DNA of 21,426 nucleotides, from IMG/VR virus record IMGVR_UViG_3300017605_000068, positions 1 through 21,426 of that record; one strand, written 5' to 3'. The number at the start of each line of letters is the position of its first letter. Positions within the stretch are counted from its first letter, which is position 1. This document shows, piece after piece, positions 4,272 through 13,306 of the stretch. Under the pieces are notes generated by a model. It ran no database searches and was not told where the DNA came from. It worked only from the letters and a program-made list of their open reading frames with translations. This stretch comes from a virus. The position numbers and the translations under genes are program-made.

Positions 4272-6821
4272 ATGTCTGTTGCCCCACCTGAAAAGCGAAT
4301 TATCCGGTACGAAGCGACGCCCACGTTAGGGCGCTTCCATCGTAGCAATGCTTTTTACAGGAACATCATGGGGCCGGTTGGTAGCGGGAAGTCCAGCGGG
4401 TGCTGCAACGAGATTATGATGCGAGCACACGCGCAAAAGCCTGGTCCGAGAGGCAAGCGAAGGTCGAGATGGGCAGTAATTCGAAACTGCTACGACGCGC
4501 AGACAGAGATATTGACGGAAACAAGGGGTTGGCAACTGTTCAAGGATTTGGATCCCGAGGATAAGGTGGCAATGCTGGAAAACGGAGCGATGGTTTTCGC
4601 AAAGCCCACCTACTACTATCGGGCTCCTCATGATGGCGAGATGGTTGGTATCCGCTCTCAGAACGTCGACCTCTTTGTTACCCCCAATCATAAGCTCTGG
4701 GTCAGTGGCAGAAGGACTCGCAAAAAAGTTTGGTGTCGACATGAGTTTAAGAAGGCTGAAGAAATCTACGGGAGTGGTGAAGTCTGGCGCATGTCTTCGG
4801 AGTCGAAAGGTTGGCAGGGTGGGTCGACGCAGTTTAGCGAAGACTTCTTGGAGTTCTTGGGTTTCTGGTTCGCTGAAGGCTATGCTGGAGTCTATCAAAG
4901 AGCGGTTAGCGGCGGTCAGCATTACCGCTTGGTCGTAAGTCAAAAGAAGTATTGCCCGTATGTCCAAGAACTGCTGAAGCGTTGCGGTTTGCCTTATGGT
5001 CGACATGATAAGGGTGGAGGAAATTTCAACTATACCCTGTCGACTGCTGAGCCTGAGACTAAGGAACTGATTCATAAGCTGGCCGACTGTGGCAAGTCGA
5101 CAACAAAGAAGGTCCCAACGTGGATTAAGAATGCTCCGATCACGCATTTGAGGGCGTTTCTCCGTGGGCATCAGATGGGAGATGGGCGCTTTAAGACAGG
5201 TCCACACAGTTGCGATCAGCATGTTACGGCGTCGGTCGACCTGGCGAATGATCTTCAAGAGATGCTTGCAAAGACTGGCAAGGCGTCGACCGTCACTTAC
5301 AGCGGTGGCAGGTATGAAGTTACCGTGTCGACCAAGGAAAGATCGAATCCAGTCATTCAGAAACGACATTGGCGCAAAGAGAAATACACCGGATACGTTT
5401 ACTGCGTTGAGGTCCCAACACATATTGTCTATGTGAGGCGGAACGGGAAAGCTGTTTGGTGTTCTCAAACTTACGGGGAACTTAAGGATACGACTATCAG
5501 AACGTGGCTCGATTGGTTCCCAGAGGATGTGTATGGAAAATTCCACTGGACAGACTACGAGCACTATCTGGAGTTTAATGATATCGAGCTTGAAGTATGG
5601 TTTAGGGCCCTTGATCGGCCTGACCATGTTGCGAAAGTTCTCTCGATGGAAGTCACAGGAGCGTGGATCAACGAAGCGCGCGAAGTCCCGTACTCGATCG
5701 TCAAAGCGGTAGGTGATAGGGTTGGGCGATACCCGTCGAGGCGCGAGGAAGGGTGTTCGTGGCGTGGGGTGATTCAGGATACAAACCCTCCGGATACAGA
5801 CCATTGGTGGGCTGTGCTGGCGAATAAGGACAGAAGTACGGATTTTGGGCGCGATTTGCTGTCCTCAGTCGAGCAGTCGGAAGCGTTGATGAGGGAGCAA
5901 GGACAGACGGCGCCGATGTTTGAATTCTTCTCGCAACCTGGAGGCTTAATTGAAACAGGACTTGATGGAGAAGGTCGCCCTATCTTTGTACCTAACCCGC
6001 GAGCTGAGAATCTTAATAACCTCGAACCAGGCTATTACATTAGCCGAATGGCAGGCGCTACTGCCTCACATATCCGCGTCTATTACTGCGGAAATTACGG
6101 CTTCTCCTTCGACGGCAAACCAATCCTTCCGGAATATCGAGATCAAACCCACTGCGCCAAAGAACAGCTCAAACCCGTTCGTGGCATACCTATACAGTGG
6201 GGCGCAGACTTCGGGCTTACCCCCGCGATTGTTTTCGGACAGCGTTTCCCCAATGGACGAATAACCTGGGTTGACGAGCTGGTTGCTACGGATATGGGCT
6301 CGGAGAACTTCGCCAAGCTGTTTGTGCAGTATGTCAATGCAACGTTTGCGGGACATCGTTTTGCCGATGGGACAGGGGATCCAGCGGGCGAGCAGAGAGC
6401 GCAGACCGATGAGGCAACGCCATTTCAGATATTCAATCAAGTGCTGGAGCAATCAAGGATGCCGATTCGGCTGTATCCCGCGAGAACGAATGACTTCACT
6501 ATCAGGCGGGAAGCGATTGCGCACCCTTTAGGGAGATTGATTGACGGGGCGCCTGGGCTGCTGGTGAGTCCCAAGTGCGCGGTGACACGCAAGGGATTGC
6601 AAGGTGGGTACTGCTACAAGCGCATGAAGGTTTCTGGGGATGAGAAGTATCACGACAAGCCCGACAAGAACAAATTCTCGCATCCGGTCGAGGCTGGCGG
6701 GTACATGAATCTGGGGATGGGTGAAGGTGTCAGTCTGATTATCCCTGACATCAACGAAGAGGAAGAGGAAGGCACGCGGAAGCCTTGGGGTACGGGGCGA
6801 AGCGCGGTTTCAGGATACTAA
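4272..6821 (+). CDS. terL: Terminase large subunit (packaging ATPase/nuclease) containing an intein
   Basis: The 849-residue precursor splices to about 522 residues, a normal TerL size. The ATPase has Walker A GPVGSGKS (34-41). The adenine-motif region RN/TYGELKDTTIRTWLDWFP is interrupted by the intein between N72 and T400. Walker B is AWINEAREV (464-472) and the coupling motif is DTNPPD (503-508). The C-terminal RNase H-like nuclease is visible as GADFGLTPA (catalytic D646), GDPAG (D703) and SHPVEAGGY (E807 in the place of the usual third acid). It would cut concatemeric DNA and pump it through the portal at 6821. The Shine-Dalgarno is poor, so the start abutting the upstream TGA implies translational coupling. 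The stop overlaps the portal start (TAATG). Confidence 0.95.
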   Translation: MSVAPPEKRIIRYEATPTLGRFHRSNAFYRNIMGPVGSGKSSGCCNEIMMRAHAQKPGPRGKRRSRWAVIRNCYDAQTEILTETRGWQLFKDLDPEDKVAMLENGAMVFAKPTYYYRAPHDGEMVGIRSQNVDLFVTPNHKLWVSGRRTRKKVWCRHEFKKAEEIYGSGEVWRMSSESKGWQGGSTQFSEDFLEFLGFWFAEGYAGVYQRAVSGGQHYRLVVSQKKYCPYVQELLKRCGLPYGRHDKGGGNFNYTLSTAEPETKELIHKLADCGKSTTKKVPTWIKNAPITHLRAFLRGHQMGDGRFKTGPHSCDQHVTASVDLANDLQEMLAKTGKASTVTYSGGRYEVTVSTKERSNPVIQKRHWRKEKYTGYVYCVEVPTHIVYVRRNGKAVWCSQTYGELKDTTIRTWLDWFPEDVYGKFHWTDYEHYLEFNDIELEVWFRALDRPDHVAKVLSMEVTGAWINEAREVPYSIVKAVGDRVGRYPSRREEGCSWRGVIQDTNPPDTDHWWAVLANKDRSTDFGRDLLSSVEQSEALMREQGQTAPMFEFFSQPGGLIETGLDGEGRPIFVPNPRAENLNNLEPGYYISRMAGATASHIRVYYCGNYGFSFDGKPILPEYRDQTHCAKEQLKPVRGIPIQWGADFGLTPAIVFGQRFPNGRITWVDELVATDMGSENFAKLFVQYVNATFAGHRFADGTGDPAGEQRAQTDEATPFQIFNQVLEQSRMPIRLYPARTNDFTIRREAIAHPLGRLIDGAPGLLVSPKCAVTRKGLQGGYCYKRMKVSGDEKYHDKPDKNKFSHPVEAGGYMNLGMGEGVSLIIPDINEEEEEGTRKPWGTGRSAVSGY
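4488..5468 (+). other. Intein with LAGLIDADG homing endonuclease, inside terL
   Basis: Residues 73-399 (327 aa) interrupt TerL in frame. Splicing block A is CYDAQTEILTETRGW with nucleophile C73. Block B is LFVTPNH with T137 and H140. Block F is YVYCVEVPTHIVYVRRNG with H384. The C-terminal junction is WCSQ/T. The terminal residue is Gln399 instead of the common Asn, and the penultimate residue is Ser instead of His; the +1 extein nucleophile is T400. The two endonuclease helices are LGFWFAEG (196-203, acid E202) and FLRGHQMGDG (296-305, acid D304), so the homing nuclease looks intact. Removing it joins RN to TYGELKD, a normal TerL sequence. The DNA is unusually rich in GTCGAC. Confidence 0.93.
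4665..5332 (+). repeat. Cluster of nine GTCGAC hexamers
   Basis: GTCGAC occurs at 4665, 4735, 4823, 4999, 5039, 5096, 5235, 5285 and 5327, all inside the intein. They fall in all three codon phases (giving VD, GRH/CRH and ST), so protein sequence does not explain them. Reading every TCGA in the rest of the window I found no other GTCGAC, although GTCGAG, GTCGAT and GTCGAA are common. Confidence 0.75.
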
Positions 6822-8929
6822 TGGCAAGCACCTTACAACGGCTGGTCAACATTCTTCAAAGCACGTCGCTGATCGACGAGAAGTCGATTCAGGAAGATAA
6901 GGGCAAGATTGCGGCTCGCTGCTATGAAGAGTTCGAGATGGATTTGCGTTCTCGCGGAGAGTGGGAGCAGCAAAGCAAAGGTGCGCTGGAAATTGCCAAG
7001 CAGGTCTGGAGCAAGAAGACGGAGCCGTGGGATGGGGCGGCAAACGTCAAGTACCCGTTGATTGCAGGTGCGGCGGTGCAGTTCGGGGCAAGGGCGTATC
7101 CAGCGATTCTCTCAGGGCGAGATATTGTGCGCACGAAGATTGTTGGGCAAGATCCTGACGGCTCGAAGAGTGCGCGGGCGGCTCGTGTGCAGAAGCATAT
7201 GAATTATCAGTTGACGGAGCAGATTAAGGATTGGGATGAGGGCATGGACAAGCTGTTACATGGCTTACCAGTCCTCGGCACCATGTTCAAGAAAACTTAC
7301 TGGAGTAAGCTCCTTGAGCGTCCCGTAAGCGAATTGGTCCTCCCGCACGACTTGGTTGTTAATAATGATACGACGAAAGACATACTTGAAGCGCGACGGA
7401 TTACGCACATATTTGCGTTATTCAAGAATGAGATTATCGAACGGATGCGCTCGGGAATCTGGACAAAGGACGAAACGATTCTTGAGCGGCTGAATCCGAC
7501 TGGCACAGACGAGCAAGGGCCGTACACGGTTCTCGAACAGCATCGGTGGCTGGACCTGGATGATGATGGGTACGAAGAGCCTTACGCAGTCACGATGTTG
7601 CCGGGTATCGGCATGACTGACGGGGGTGTACATCAGTTTCAGGTGGGAGATATTGTGCGGATTGTCCCGCGATACTTCCCTGAAGACGTGGAATTGAACG
7701 AGGATGGCAAGATTAAGAAAATTAATCCGCAGTGTGCCTTCTCGAAGTACACGTTTATCCCTGATTTCTGCGGCAAGTTTTACGATGTTGGCTTTGGGCA
7801 GCTGTTGAATCCGCTGAATGAGGCGGTAAACGGGCTGATTAATCAGCTACTCGATGCTGGCACGCTGTCGAACATGCAATCTGGGTTCATTGCCAAGGGA
7901 TTGAAGGTCAAGGGCGGGGAAATGCGATTCTCCCCGGGTGAATTCAAGCAAGTCAACTCGTTGATGAACGATTTAAGGGGCTCGATCCTGCCATTGCCGT
8001 ACAAAGAGCCTTCTCCGACGCTGATGAACCTGCTTACGTTCCTGGTTGATGCGGGAAAGCAGCTGAGCTCGGTGTCTGAAGTGTTGTCGGGTGAGCAAAG
8101 CGGCGTGAATGTCCCGGCAACAACGACTCTCGCGCTGATCGAACAGGGCTTGAAGGTGTTTACAGCCATCAACAAGCGCGTGTATCGCGGCATGGCGTCT
8201 GAGTTCGAGATTATCTATTACCTCAATGCGCGCTATCTGTCTGATGCGGAATATTTCAAGATTCTGGACGAAGAAAACATCATTGCGCGTTCCGATTATG
8301 CGATGGGTGATTGCGATATTTACCCCGTTGCGGATCCGACGAATGCCACCAGTACGCAAAAGCTGATTAAGGCTGAAGCATTGATGAAAACAATGGGGAT
8401 GCCGGGGGCGGCTGATCCGAGAGCGATCTTGCACAAGTATTACGAGGCGCTGGAGATTGACGACTTAGAGAAATTCCACCCAGAGCAAGGCCCTGAACCT
8501 CCTCCCGATCCGAAAGCGGAAGACATCAAGTCGAGCATTCAAGAGCGGCAAGCGAAGTTACCGTATGAAATCGAGAAGCTCAGGACTGAGAGCATTAAGA
8601 ACATCGCGCTAGCCGAAGCCGCCGAGATAGGCCCGCAACTGGAGCAATACAAGCTGGCGTTGCAGTCGGTGTTGCAAGACAGGCAACAACGTGGCGATCA
8701 GGAGCTACAGCAGCAGCAGATGGATCAGCAGGCTCAGATGCAACAAGCGCAGATGATGCAGCAGCAACAAATGCAGCAGCAGGATCAAGGGCATCAAGCC
8801 GGGATGCAGCAGCAGCAGATGATGGCCGATCAGCAGGACGCGGATGCTACCCGCGAGCATGAGATGGGATTGGCGGGGATGGAAGCGGAAGCAGCGGCAC
8901 AGAACAACGATAGCGGTGTCGGTGCGTGA
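6821..8929 (+). CDS. Portal protein
   Basis: The start is ATG 6821, which shares a base with the TerL stop; the frame is open further upstream, but only inside terL. The 702-residue length and position right after TerL are those of a podovirus-type portal. Typical features are EPWDGAANVKYPLI near residue 70 (membrane-free helical wing start), GMDKLLHGLPVLGTMFKKTY, a central PLNEAVNGLINQLLDAG, and YKEPSPTLMNLLTFLVDAGK before the clip/crown. The portal forms a dodecameric ring at one capsid vertex, binding terminase on one side and the scaffold on the other. The last 80 residues are an extremely Gln- and Met-rich, probably coiled-coil or disordered, tail (about 626-673) that would form the internal crown or barrel. 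Confidence 0.92.
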   Translation: MASTLQRLVNILQSTSLIDEKSIQEDKGKIAARCYEEFEMDLRSRGEWEQQSKGALEIAKQVWSKKTEPWDGAANVKYPLIAGAAVQFGARAYPAILSGRDIVRTKIVGQDPDGSKSARAARVQKHMNYQLTEQIKDWDEGMDKLLHGLPVLGTMFKKTYWSKLLERPVSELVLPHDLVVNNDTTKDILEARRITHIFALFKNEIIERMRSGIWTKDETILERLNPTGTDEQGPYTVLEQHRWLDLDDDGYEEPYAVTMLPGIGMTDGGVHQFQVGDIVRIVPRYFPEDVELNEDGKIKKINPQCAFSKYTFIPDFCGKFYDVGFGQLLNPLNEAVNGLINQLLDAGTLSNMQSGFIAKGLKVKGGEMRFSPGEFKQVNSLMNDLRGSILPLPYKEPSPTLMNLLTFLVDAGKQLSSVSEVLSGEQSGVNVPATTTLALIEQGLKVFTAINKRVYRGMASEFEIIYYLNARYLSDAEYFKILDEENIIARSDYAMGDCDIYPVADPTNATSTQKLIKAEALMKTMGMPGAADPRAILHKYYEALEIDDLEKFHPEQGPEPPPDPKAEDIKSSIQERQAKLPYEIEKLRTESIKNIALAEAAEIGPQLEQYKLALQSVLQDRQQRGDQELQQQQMDQQAQMQQAQMMQQQQMQQQDQGHQAGMQQQQMMADQQDADATREHEMGLAGMEAEAAAQNNDSGVGA
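8706..8845 (+). repeat. CAG/CAA-rich low-complexity tract at the portal 3' end
   Basis: Imperfect runs of CAG, CAA and ATG codons encode the Gln/Met-rich portal tail (QQQQM, MQQAQMMQ, MQQQQMM). The units vary, so this is a degenerate repeat rather than a pure microsatellite. It could change length by slippage without altering the frame. Confidence 0.6.
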
Positions 8930-8942
8930 AGAAAGGAAAAGT

Positions 8943-9248
8943 ATGCTAGGTTTCGAGTGGGCATTAACTCAACTACGAAATGGGCATAAAGTCCAGCGTG
9001 GGGGATGGAATGGCAAGGATATGTATATTGCTCTTCAAGAAGGATACCCTAATGGCATACCAATTAACGCTAACACGGCTAAGGCTACGGGGCTTCCTCA
9101 AGGAACAGTATGCAAGTTCCTGCCGTATATCATGATGAAAACTTCCGACAAGGCCCCTTCATTTGTTCCGTGGTTGGCAAGTCAGACGGACATCTTAGCG
9201 TTAGATTGGGATTACTATATCGCTGCGCCATCGACGGCTAGTGCGTAA
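8943..9248 (+). CDS. DUF2829 protein, Tad2-like (possible anti-Thoeris)
   Basis: The start is ATG 8943 behind GAAAGGA; translation upstream would run into the portal end. The 101 residues show the family signature: FEWALTQLRNGHKVQRGGWNG (4-24), PYIMMKTSD (61-69) and VPWLASQTDILALDWDYY (75-92). DUF2829 includes Tad2, a phage protein that binds and sequesters the cyclic ADP-ribose-type signal of Thoeris defence, disabling the effector. Many DUF2829 members have not been tested, so an anti-defence function is inferred from family membership only. It sits among assembly genes between portal and co-chaperonin. The stop overlaps the next ATG (TAATG). Confidence 0.85.
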   Translation: MLGFEWALTQLRNGHKVQRGGWNGKDMYIALQEGYPNGIPINANTAKATGLPQGTVCKFLPYIMMKTSDKAPSFVPWLASQTDILALDWDYYIAAPSTASA

Positions 9249-9460: not shown

Positions 9461-9829
9461 ATGAATAAGGCAGTGCAAGCGGTTAGCGTAGACGATGCTT
9501 ACAAGATGCTAGAGCCTGCGGGGCATCGCATCATCGTTCGGCCTGACAAGATCGAGGAGAAGGTTGGAAGCCTTTACATTACCGAACAGGCGAAAGACAT
9601 GGAAGTCCGGGCTGCTTCGATGGGTGTGATTGTTGCCAAGGGCAAAAGTGCTTGGAAAGCATTTGACGATGGTGAGCCGTGGGCTTCGGTCGGTGACAGG
9701 GTGATGTTTGCTACCTATGCAGGACGGGATGTCCCAAAAGCCCTTGCCTATCGTGTAGCGCCGACTGCCGATCGGCTTGTTGTGCTGAATGATGAAGATA
9801 TTTTGATGATTGTGCGCGAGGAAAAATAA
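9461..9829 (+). CDS. GroES-like co-chaperonin
   Basis: The 122-residue protein has the Cpn10 barrel. LEPAGHRIIVRPDKIEEK (17-34) is the first strand region. GSLYITEQAKDMEVRA (36-51) corresponds to the mobile loop, with LYI as the hydrophobic tripeptide that docks on GroEL. MGVIVAKG (54-61) is followed by VGDRVMFATYAGRDV (77-91), and LVVLNDEDILMIV (106-118) is the closing strand. Phage GroES-like proteins (such as T4 gp31) replace host GroES so the host chaperonin folds the capsid protein. It lies upstream of the scaffold and coat genes, as that role predicts. A GGAGGAG Shine-Dalgarno precedes ATG 9461. Confidence 0.92.
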   Translation: MNKAVQAVSVDDAYKMLEPAGHRIIVRPDKIEEKVGSLYITEQAKDMEVRAASMGVIVAKGKSAWKAFDDGEPWASVGDRVMFATYAGRDVPKALAYRVAPTADRLVVLNDEDILMIVREEK

Positions 9830-9830
9830 T
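9803..9830 (+). promoter_or_regulatory. Promoter candidate upstream of the structured RNA
   Basis: TTGATG (9803-9808) and AATAAT (9825-9830) are separated by 16 nt, matching the -35 consensus at 4/6 and the -10 consensus at 5/6, inside the end of the GroES-like gene. Transcription would start near 9837, about 30 nt before the structured RNA. The spacing is plausible but such matches also occur by chance. Confidence 0.35.
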
Positions 9831-9864
9831 GAAGGGCAAAGGCAAAAAGAAAAAAGGTTGCTAG
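9829..9864 (+). CDS. 11-residue lysine-rich micropeptide (doubtful)
   Basis: ATG 9829 shares a base with the stop of the GroES-like gene (TAATG), the coupling seen at several other junctions here. The product MKGKGKKKKGC is almost entirely lysine and glycine with a terminal cysteine. It could be a real DNA- or RNA-binding micropeptide, a leader peptide for the adjacent RNA, or chance. It is far too short to judge by composition. Confidence 0.25.
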   Translation: MKGKGKKKKGC

Positions 9865-9867
9865 CAG

Positions 9868-10073
9868 TTTAGGGGTTAAGCGGCTCCACACTTCACACTA
9901 CCGATAACCAAGCTTTCACTTACTCTCGTAGAGTTGCGAAGCTAACCGTTATCCACCTGGGTGTGAGCAGTGGCTTCCCCTAAAAACTTTGGTCTACGGT
10001 AGGCATACCGTTTAAAGGCCACCCAAAGCAGTAGAAAAGGCTCTATTCGAATTCGAGCGGATAGGGCCTTTTC
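9868..10073 (+). ncRNA. Novel structured RNA candidate (about 200 nt)
   Basis: This 200-nt stretch has no convincing gene but folds extensively. TTTAGGGG (9868-9875) pairs with CCCCTAAA (9977-9984). Nested inside are AAG/CTT, CCAC/GTGG (9886-9889 with 9970-9973), TCACAC/GTGTGA (9893-9898 with 9961-9966), GATAAC/GTTATC (9903-9908 with 9948-9953), AGCTTT/GAAGCT (9911-9916 with 9938-9943) and ACTCT/AGAGT (9922-9926 with 9930-9934). A second hairpin has CTTTGG/CCAAAG (9987-9992 with 10023-10028) around ACGGTA-GGCA-TACCGT (9996-10011). A terminator hairpin follows. It matches no RNA family I recognise; it is not a tRNA. It could be a stand-alone phage RNA or a leader controlling the scaffold/coat operon. 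A GTGGC/GCCAC alternative pairing (9970-9974 with 10018-10022) might allow switching. Confidence 0.65.
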
Positions 10074-10079
10074 TTTTGG
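10034..10079 (+). terminator. Strong intrinsic terminator
   Basis: A 13-bp stem pairs 10034-10046 with 10061-10073 (GAAAAGGCTCTAT with ATAGGGCCTTTTC, one G-U pair). It encloses a 14-nt loop that contains the palindrome TCGAATTCGA and is followed by TTTTCTTTT-like sequence. It ends only about 10 nt before the next gene's start, so it probably works as an attenuator or 3' end of the structured RNA, with partial read-through. Confidence 0.8.
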
Positions 10080-10087
10080 ATAAAGCA

Positions 10088-10282
10088 ATGAAGTACATCG
10101 ACTCAGTGCGTTATTTCAAGCTCCGGGAAGAGGTTGCAAAACTTGACGAGAAGCTCGGCTTCTTCAAGCAGAGAAGGGAAGCATTCGAAGGGATGGAGAA
10201 GTTTTTGGAAAACGAGTTAGTCACTCTGAGAGCAGAGATGGCGGGTTTGGAAGAAAGCGAAAGTGAGAGCGCACATGGCTGA
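10088..10282 (+). CDS. Hypothetical 64-residue coiled-coil protein
   Basis: I choose ATG 10088 over a TTG 12 bases earlier because the latter lies in the terminator tail; GGA at 10078-10080 is a modest Shine-Dalgarno. The product is almost wholly helical with heptad-like spacing (LREEVAKLDEKLGFFKQRRE, then MEKFLENELVTLRAEMAGLE) and ends in a Ser/Glu-rich tail. It overlaps the scaffold gene by 8 nt. It might be a small scaffold partner, but no family is recognised. It is the first gene after the terminator. Confidence 0.7.
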   Translation: MKYIDSVRYFKLREEVAKLDEKLGFFKQRREAFEGMEKFLENELVTLRAEMAGLEESESESAHG

Positions 10283-11252
10283 AGAGTCCATGACAGTAAC
10301 GTTTGACGATTATGCACCACCAGCACCAGCGGCTGAACCGCCCAAGGTAGAGCCTGCTCAAGAGAGTCGGCCAGTAACGAAGACGATTACTGATCCTCCT
10401 CCTGGTGATCCGGTTGTCTTCACGGAAGAGCCGGAAGAAACTGCGGAGCCAACTGCGGACCATGCTCCGTTTGGCTATGTGGATCCGGTCGAGGGAAAGA
10501 CTGACGCCGAGATTGAGCGCATGGCGCGGTCGATGGGATGGAAACCACTCGATAAATTCAGGCTCAATCCGCGTGCCTGGGTTCCCGCCAAGGCGTGGGT
10601 GCAAAACAAGCCACTCGTCGATCAAATCAAGGAACTGAAGCGTGAGCATGCCAAAGACTTACAGGTTGCCAATGAGCATTACACGCGTGTTCACGATACC
10701 GCGTATCGCAAGGCATTTGAGGACTTGAACGCACAGAAGCGCCAAGCTGTCATCGACCAGGATGTTGAAAAGGTCGAGGCGATTGACCGTCAGATAGCGC
10801 AAACACAAGTCGAGCAGCTCAAGACGGCGCCTCGTCCTGTCAACACGATTGACCCGGCTTACAACGACTTCATTGCGGCTAATCCCACTATCTATAACTC
10901 ACCGGACTTATGGAGTTTCGCAGTTGCCTATGAAGCGCAGTTGATGAATTCGCATCCTGACATCGACGCTCGGCTGGAAGCGGTGGCTTCGGCAACACGT
11001 AAGGCATTCCCTGAAAAGTTCGGCAATCCACGCAAGCAGGCTCCTCAGTTGTTTGAAGGTGCAACCGCCTCGGCTCCGATGGGCGCGGGAAGCGGTAAGA
11101 AGGCATTCACCGTCAACGATCTCACTGCGGAAGAGAAGGAAGTCATGGGGCGGCTGGTGCGCACCAAAACCCTGAAGCCTGAAGAGTACCTGAGGGACAT
11201 CGCCGAGTTGCGCGGTGGCAAGCAGGCATTTGAAATCGAGGATAGGAGATAG
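10275..11252 (+). CDS. Scaffolding-like protein
   Basis: The ATG at 10275 gives 325 residues. A Pro/Glu-rich disordered N-terminus (APPAPAAEPP, EEPEETAEP) is followed by DAEIERMARSMGWKPLDKFR (a short conserved-looking element). A long charged helix spans roughly residues 110-190 (LVDQIKELKREHAKDLQVAN onward, with DLNAQKRQAVIDQDVEKVE). The C-terminal section from FEGATASAPMGAGSGKKAF is Ala/Gly-rich and ends in a basic and acidic helix. Position between portal and coat, acidic disordered start and central coiled coil fit a capsid scaffold that is expelled or degraded during maturation. No catalytic protease motif was seen. Scaffold proteins diverge fast, so the call is structural. Confidence 0.7.
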   Translation: MAEESMTVTFDDYAPPAPAAEPPKVEPAQESRPVTKTITDPPPGDPVVFTEEPEETAEPTADHAPFGYVDPVEGKTDAEIERMARSMGWKPLDKFRLNPRAWVPAKAWVQNKPLVDQIKELKREHAKDLQVANEHYTRVHDTAYRKAFEDLNAQKRQAVIDQDVEKVEAIDRQIAQTQVEQLKTAPRPVNTIDPAYNDFIAANPTIYNSPDLWSFAVAYEAQLMNSHPDIDARLEAVASATRKAFPEKFGNPRKQAPQLFEGATASAPMGAGSGKKAFTVNDLTAEEKEVMGRLVRTKTLKPEEYLRDIAELRGGKQAFEIEDRR

Positions 11253-12344: not shown

Positions 12345-13259
12345 ATGGCAGGGATCATCAACACTGGTTCCTTTGCGAAATCGTTAATGCCTGGTGTCAA
12401 AGCTTGGTTCGGCGCCTCGTATAACGAATACGTCAAGGAATACACGAAGATTTTCAAGCAGGAAACCTCGGACAAAGCCTATGAGGAAATGGTTTCCGTA
12501 ACCTCAATGGGTTTAGCCGGGGTGAAGTCTGAAGGATCTTCCATCGCTTACGATGCGATGAAGCAGTTCTATGTGAACCGCACGCCTCACGTGGTTTACG
12601 GCCTGGGCTTCATCATCACGCGGGAGCATAAGGAAGACAATCAGTATACCGAAGTTGCCAAAGCACGCTCGACCGCTTTGGGCTTCTCCATGCGTCAGAC
12701 AAAGGAGATTGTTGGCGCAAACCTCATTAACCGGGCGTTCACGGCGGGCTATACCTTCGGGGATGGTCAAGTGCTGTGCTCGGCTTCTCATCCGATTGTT
12801 GGCGGAACATTCTCCAACATCCCGAGTGTTGCCGGCGATCTGAGCGGGGCAGTTCTCGAACAGGGCGCTATCGACATTGCGGCTTTTGTCAACAATCGCG
12901 GACTCAAGATCAAGGTGATGCCTCAATCGTTGCTGATTCATCCAAGCAATATGTTCGAGGCAGAGCGGATTCTTAAGTCTGCACTGGAGTATGACACGGC
13001 GAACAATGCAGTTAACGCCTTGAAGTCTCTTGGCTCATTCCCCAAAGGTGTCAACGTCAATCACTACCTGACTGACGCTGACGCTTGGTTCATCCTCACC
13101 GATTGCCCGAACGGGTTAACTCTGTTTCAACGTCGCGCTTTGGAGCTGTCCAGTCCTGAAAACGACTTCGATACTGAGAACGCCAAGTTCAAGGCAACGG
13201 AGCGGTACAGCTTCACAAACGGCGATCCTCGCTCCATCTACGGAAGCGCAGGAGCTTAA
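12345..13259 (+). CDS. Major capsid protein (HK97-fold, Mu gpT-like)
   Basis: An AAAGGAG lies upstream of ATG 12345. The 304 residues resemble Mu gpT-type coat proteins: an N-terminal arm (FAKSLMPGVKAWFGASYNEY), a spine helix region, and GFIITREHKEDNQYTEVAKA. The later part contains MPQSLLIHPSNMFEAERIL, NHYLTDADAWFILTDCPNG and ENDFDTENAKFKATERYSF followed by DPRSIYG, which are well conserved among phage coats. It would form the icosahedral shell, assembled on the scaffold candidate with help from the GroES-like protein. An intrinsic terminator directly follows. The codon use appears typical of a strongly expressed gene. Confidence 0.9.
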   Translation: MAGIINTGSFAKSLMPGVKAWFGASYNEYVKEYTKIFKQETSDKAYEEMVSVTSMGLAGVKSEGSSIAYDAMKQFYVNRTPHVVYGLGFIITREHKEDNQYTEVAKARSTALGFSMRQTKEIVGANLINRAFTAGYTFGDGQVLCSASHPIVGGTFSNIPSVAGDLSGAVLEQGAIDIAAFVNNRGLKIKVMPQSLLIHPSNMFEAERILKSALEYDTANNAVNALKSLGSFPKGVNVNHYLTDADAWFILTDCPNGLTLFQRRALELSSPENDFDTENAKFKATERYSFTNGDPRSIYGSAGA

Positions 13260-13266
13260 CTCTTTT

Positions 13267-13306
13267 ACGGCTCGGGATAAAGGCAAGGGCCTGAGCCGTG
13301 TTTTTT
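13267..13306 (+). terminator. Intrinsic terminator after the capsid gene
   Basis: ACGGCTCGGG (13267-13276) pairs with CCTGAGCCGT (13290-13299) in a 10-bp stem with one G-U pair and a 13-nt loop, followed by G and six Ts. It begins eight bases after the capsid stop codon and would limit read-through into the virion-surface genes. Confidence 0.88.

Follow-up and report, generated by a model that had tools for sequence, protein, structure and literature searches.

What is a strongly structured, gene-free segment doing between a co-chaperonin gene and the head genes of a phage? The question is raised by an uncultured phage known from a virus record in IMG/VR (21,426 bases), the whole of which is called the window here. 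Its late operon comprises, from left to right, genes for the terminase large subunit, the portal, a Tad2-like protein, a small ORF and GroES, followed by the gap under study, a 64-aa ORF, a scaffold-like gene, two further genes and the major capsid gene. A sequence-only reading had taken the gap for an undescribed structured RNA, either a packaging or capsid-associated RNA or a leader of the coat operon, and had favored an attenuator or switch.

The upstream neighbor of the gap is the GroES-like co-chaperonin gene (9461..9829; PF00166 Cpn10, E 3.9e-7; PHROG 3188, co-chaperonin GroES), encoded on the plus strand, as are the gap features and the downstream genes described below. This bears out the first half of the proposed setting, between a co-chaperonin and a scaffold gene; in the second half, however, the next gene is the 64-aa ORF (orf10088, 10088..10282), which has a coiled-coil look, and the scaffold comes only after it. 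No relative of orf10088 was found, scans for its kin giving none close. The scaffold-like gene (10278..11252) is named by its position, as its protein has no PHROG match; scans for relatives gave none close, and by tblastn 102 loci have a relative in the corresponding position. The major capsid gene (12345..13259; PHROG 371, major head protein) has many relatives. Seven nucleotides past its stop, a terminator scan predicts an intrinsic terminator (13266..13300), with a stem of -17.6 kcal/mol followed by TTTTTTC, which closes the head-gene block.

Other features of the operon deserve mention in their own right. The terminase gene (4272-6821) contains an intein with a LAGLIDADG-like domain (PF14528), and a free-standing HNH endonuclease gene (977-1420; PHROG 119 and others) lies upstream of it. 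Between the portal gene, which ends at 8929, and GroES, thus within a structural operon, sits the Tad2-like gene (8844-9248; PF11195, E 3.8e-22), which belongs to a family of Thoeris anti-defense proteins and has matches in the same region of relatives, e.g. L055, L061, L076, L101, and L105.

That the gap is structured beyond what a random spacer would show is confirmed by folding. The minimum free energy of 9868-10079 is -82.1 kcal/mol, against -55.3 ± 4.5 kcal/mol for dinucleotide-shuffled sequences (z -5.9), and none of 200 shuffles is as stable. In these computations the gap resolves into three modules that fold independently. The first is a long unbranched hairpin, or rod, of 117 nt (9868..9984; -39.7 kcal/mol, z -3.9), closed by TTTAGGGG/CCCCTAAA. 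It had been described as six nested stems closed by a perfect 8-bp stem; the long rod stands, but it consists of about eight nested helical segments, and whereas the inner six pairs of the closing stem have probabilities of 0.89-1.0, the outer two reach only 0.41 and 0.68. The second module, a compact hairpin with one asymmetric bulge (9987..10023; -14.1 kcal/mol, z -3.1), corresponds to the second hairpin already proposed. The third is a terminator hairpin (10029..10078), to which the total folding signal is largely owed: folded over 10029-10080, it reaches -27.5 kcal/mol (z -6.7), with a pair probability of about 1. It was correctly recognized as a terminator, but its stem is 17 bp long (10033-10049/10058-10074, with an 8-nt loop) and not 13 bp. 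On its 3' side, CCTTTTCTTTT forms a U-rich tract that is partly paired to an A-tract. A strict consensus scan missed this hairpin and a looser terminator scan picked it up; with its stable GC-containing stem and U-rich 3' tract, it has the predicted properties of an intrinsic terminator. The head genes are hence bracketed by two predicted terminators (10029..10078 and 13266..13300).

How exceptional is the rod by itself? Among the 117-nt sliding windows of the phage, a z of -3.9 or lower occurs in 3 of 532, two of which overlap the gap terminator, which places the rod among roughly the lowest one percent. Within the capsid gene, a stretch of coding sequence (12368-12567) folds lower still (z -6.3, from a 200-nt scan with 30 shuffles). 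The rod is therefore unusual, not unique. It is known from one sequence only, and covariation supports neither the rod nor the hairpin.

The gap was held to be gene-free and to resemble no recognized RNA family, and both statements proved sound. No ORF of at least 60 aa lies within 9868-10079, the longest frame having 48 aa on the minus strand. Searched against Rfam 15, the gap gave no match at the gathering threshold; relaxing the cutoff to E<=10 added no more than two matches, both of which stay below threshold, look like chance and involve the terminator hairpin, and a phi29-type pRNA, an intron or a riboswitch was not among them. Just before the rod, a putative lysine-rich micro-ORF, MKGKGKKKKGC* (9829..9864), overlaps the GroES stop with its start and has a Shine-Dalgarno-like GAGG upstream; it is possibly the remnant of a former scaffold start. 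A weak sigma70-like site, TTGATG-16-AATAAT (9803..9830), is the candidate promoter, and 15.5% of random phage segments of the same length score as high, which is chance level. The terminator does stand right before the next start, as had been noticed: only 9 nt separate it from orf10088, and no promoter therefore fits between them.

Further evidence comes from related phages, collected through their portal and capsid proteins and supplemented with prophage-like loci of bacterial genomes, mostly from Alphaproteobacteria. In 92 of the 102 relatives in which both genes could be placed, no more than 20 nt separate GroES from scaffold. The relative with the closest capsid protein (L035, 63% identical) has 6 nt there; the nearest portal relative (L002, 55%) ends before GroES, and the closest kin thus falls outside the junction comparison. 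Since the two genes lie so close in most relatives, the rod and orf10088, which is absent wherever GroES abuts the scaffold, represent an insertion that belongs to the window's lineage. Judged by this comparison of sequences, the roughly 240-base non-coding segment and the 64-aa ORF behind it look like an accessory, lineage-specific insertion rather than a core RNA for packaging or switching.

The search for homologues of the rod extended to about 215 related loci, 41 pattern-hit loci, 48 whole records and about 690 bacterial genomes and came back empty, although such a result, obtained without a positive control, shows little. The covariance model of rod and hairpin was built from a single sequence, which limits its reach and makes it insensitive; run over the related viral loci, 20 prophage loci, the 41 pattern-hit loci, the 48 records and 692 genomes, it returned the window itself and one chance local match (E 8). 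Against phages and plasmids, blastn of the gap returned at most short matches attributable to chance. When parts of the rod were used as exact patterns to scan IMG/VR, the matches fell outside any similar fold, and the best-looking of them (L256) lies mostly within coding sequence. An apparent homologous rod in L141 (AAGGGGATTCAGC...GCATTCCTTAAAAAC) was also discarded, the stretch being a 32-aa ORF that resembles those of L134 and L148.

A minority of relatives carry other inserts at the GroES-scaffold junction, all unrelated to the gap. One has an ORF that by eye resembles a GIY-YIG endonuclease (L101:3498-3986). Another has the same order as the window with a dissimilar sequence, namely a 119-nt gap with a terminator followed by a 97-aa ORF (L130). 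In L141, the 32-aa ORF is followed by a terminator directly before the scaffold gene, and L134 and L148 have a similar arrangement of ORF and terminator after GroES. The very small hydrophobic ORF (about 32 aa, ...LIRGFSFIVALLKKVQKGE...) is common to these three loci (L134:3773-3874, L141:5034-5132, and L148:9040-9141), in each case with the terminator following it. Terminators also occur in the junction of L189 and L197, and in L118, L120, and L177 a terminator precedes GroES. When 124 non-redundant loci were scanned, terminator-like hits numbered 9 between portal and scaffold and 31 after the capsid gene, against a background of 40 minus-strand hits; of the 9, those in L101 and L203 have the look of coding sequence. 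Terminators directly after the capsid gene, as in the window, are common in this phage group. To judge from the loci compared, a terminator at the boundary between portal and head genes is recurrent yet uncommon, and only the window has the structured rod.

The explanation that best accommodates these observations, and to which we give about an even chance of being right, is that 9830-10087 is an accessory, structured, non-coding insertion that ends the portal-GroES transcript and possibly gives rise to a small RNA roughly 0.2 kb long, with the head genes expressed by read-through. A polymerase arriving from the terminase-portal-GroES side would reach the terminator at 10033-10076, where the majority of transcripts would end, so that the portal-GroES mRNA would have a 3' end that is structured and resists nucleases. 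If the RNA were processed or separately initiated, the alternative product would be the small RNA. A fraction of polymerases would read through, either because the terminator is leaky or by late phage antitermination, and produce an orf10088-scaffold-capsid mRNA that would end at the second terminator. The terminator reading is favored by the finding that the strong hairpin forms whatever the rod does. Two points speak against the explanation. First, a terminator ahead of the capsid gene with no visible promoter downstream would lower capsid expression, which would be odd unless read-through is high; as capsid protein is needed far more than portal protein, either orf10088 would have to contain a promoter or the polymerase would have to read through efficiently during late infection. 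Second, the weak promoter-like site upstream would permit a separate transcript.

This second point leads to an alternative that we consider unlikely, though credible, in which the gap is the leader of a late operon under processive antitermination. Transcription from a promoter close to where GroES ends would produce a leader of about 240 nt, and the polymerase would be halted at the terminator until an antiterminator acts, be it a phage factor or, as with the HK022 put RNA, the structured leader itself. The promoter-like site lies at the right distance for this, the terminator leaves no room for a promoter behind it and has a structured leader in front, and the whole layout recalls lambda pR'-tR'. 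However, the site scores no better than chance, most relatives have neither leader nor terminator at this position, and no antiterminator gene was identified within the 21-kb fragment.

It is less probable again that the gap is moron-like cargo and encodes a discrete small RNA, from a family not yet classified, that regulates phage or host RNAs in trans. A non-coding, structured, terminator-capped accessory insertion is what would be expected of such an RNA, and a precedent exists in the Shiga phages, whose moron site encodes AgvB and AsxR (PMC4104026), but the gap is without a convincing promoter of its own and no homologue turned up in any collection searched. A little more doubtful still is the bolder proposal of a new small RNA family in the phage head-gene block, which would either target host or phage RNAs in trans or serve the capsid operon in cis as an RNA antiterminator.

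The attenuator or switch favored by the sequence-only reading does not hold up well, and we regard it as very unlikely. Here, refolding of the rod in response to a ligand or a ribosome would decide whether the terminator forms; in one variant, a ribosome translating the micro-ORF would come to stand at the rod foot. The micro-ORF, with its plausible ribosome site, does end 3 nt ahead of the rod, and the terminator directly precedes the next start. The alternative GTGGC:GCCAC pairing on which the proposal leaned, however, has an ensemble probability of 0.0, and forcing it costs 10.4 kcal/mol and leaves the terminator hairpin standing, so that this pairing could not control termination. The only other plausible antiterminator, AAAGGCC:GGCCTTT, which was spotted by eye, carries a penalty of 17 kcal/mol, and doing away with the terminator entirely takes 27.6 kcal/mol. 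Folds begun at later start points, which mimic a ribosome on the rod foot, leave the terminator unchanged, and Rfam yields no riboswitch. The gap shows no terminator and antiterminator folds that exclude each other and are similar in energy, the penalties being 10-28 kcal/mol and the probabilities of the alternative pairs 0. A thermodynamic switch based on the fold is not supported by these models; control of termination may still be kinetic or protein-dependent.

An equally slim chance attaches to the possibility that the gap is a DNA-level remnant of a mobile element, either a MITE-like palindrome or a decayed intron, with no function as RNA. The rod does end in 8-bp perfect terminal inverted repeats with an imperfect extension, the junction also takes an endonuclease gene in L101, and the window contains the HNH gene and the intein elsewhere. 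On the other hand, there is no target-site duplication at the rod ends, where the flanks GCTAGCAG and AACTTTGG have no repeat in common, no second copy was found in the window or in the collections searched, and no Rfam intron matches. Finally, a packaging or capsid-associated RNA that acts in the prohead like phi29 pRNA has the compact structure and the place among head genes in its favor but is hardly credible, because the element is missing from relatives that share the portal, GroES, scaffold and capsid genes, and the Rfam pRNA model gives no match.

If the accessory insertion is transcribed, the GroES-scaffold junction would be an insertion point for non-coding RNA as well as for endonucleases and small ORFs, and the capsid block of such phages could be insulated by terminators on both sides. 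This would bear on how the amounts of portal and capsid protein are balanced in them. With one sequence and no homologue, the value of the observation at present is that of a lead.

The gap shares features with several known systems. Its terminator resembles the intrinsic terminators of phage head blocks, a GC-rich stem and a U-rich tract between gene blocks, which in relatives follow the capsid gene and sometimes precede scaffold or GroES; the difference is that here a 117-nt rod and a hairpin come before it, which relatives lack. Like phi29 pRNA, it would be a structured phage RNA encoded alongside head assembly genes, but it is an unbranched rod with no predicted three-way junction, matches no Rfam model and is not conserved with the packaging and head genes. 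In the lambda pR'-tR' region (lambda 6S RNA) and in the HK022 put RNA, a structured leader of roughly 200 nt, a terminator and the late genes follow one another, and the put RNA itself lets the polymerase through the terminator. The gap likewise has a structured leader of similar size ending at a terminator, but it differs in its position, in having no supported promoter or identified antiterminator, and in its absence from most kin. Small RNAs encoded by phages at accessory sites have been reviewed (PMC12197685), and they include AgvB/EcOnc01 and AsxR at the accessory (moron) site of Shiga phages (PMC4104026). The predicted element is comparable to these as a terminator-ended non-coding RNA at an insertion site in a phage late region, and the mark of moron small RNAs, an insertion absent in close relatives, is seen here in the 92 of 102 loci with at most 20 nt at the junction. 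It differs in that it is larger, comes from an unrelated organism and lies in the head genes, not next to Q/pR'. Since small RNAs at phage accessory sites are already known, an RNA of this sort would join a known kind, and one sequence supports no novelty beyond that. The gap is not shown to be a pRNA, riboswitch, attenuator, MITE or member of an Rfam family; by its predicted folds, it would act as an intrinsic terminator preceded by a structured leader.
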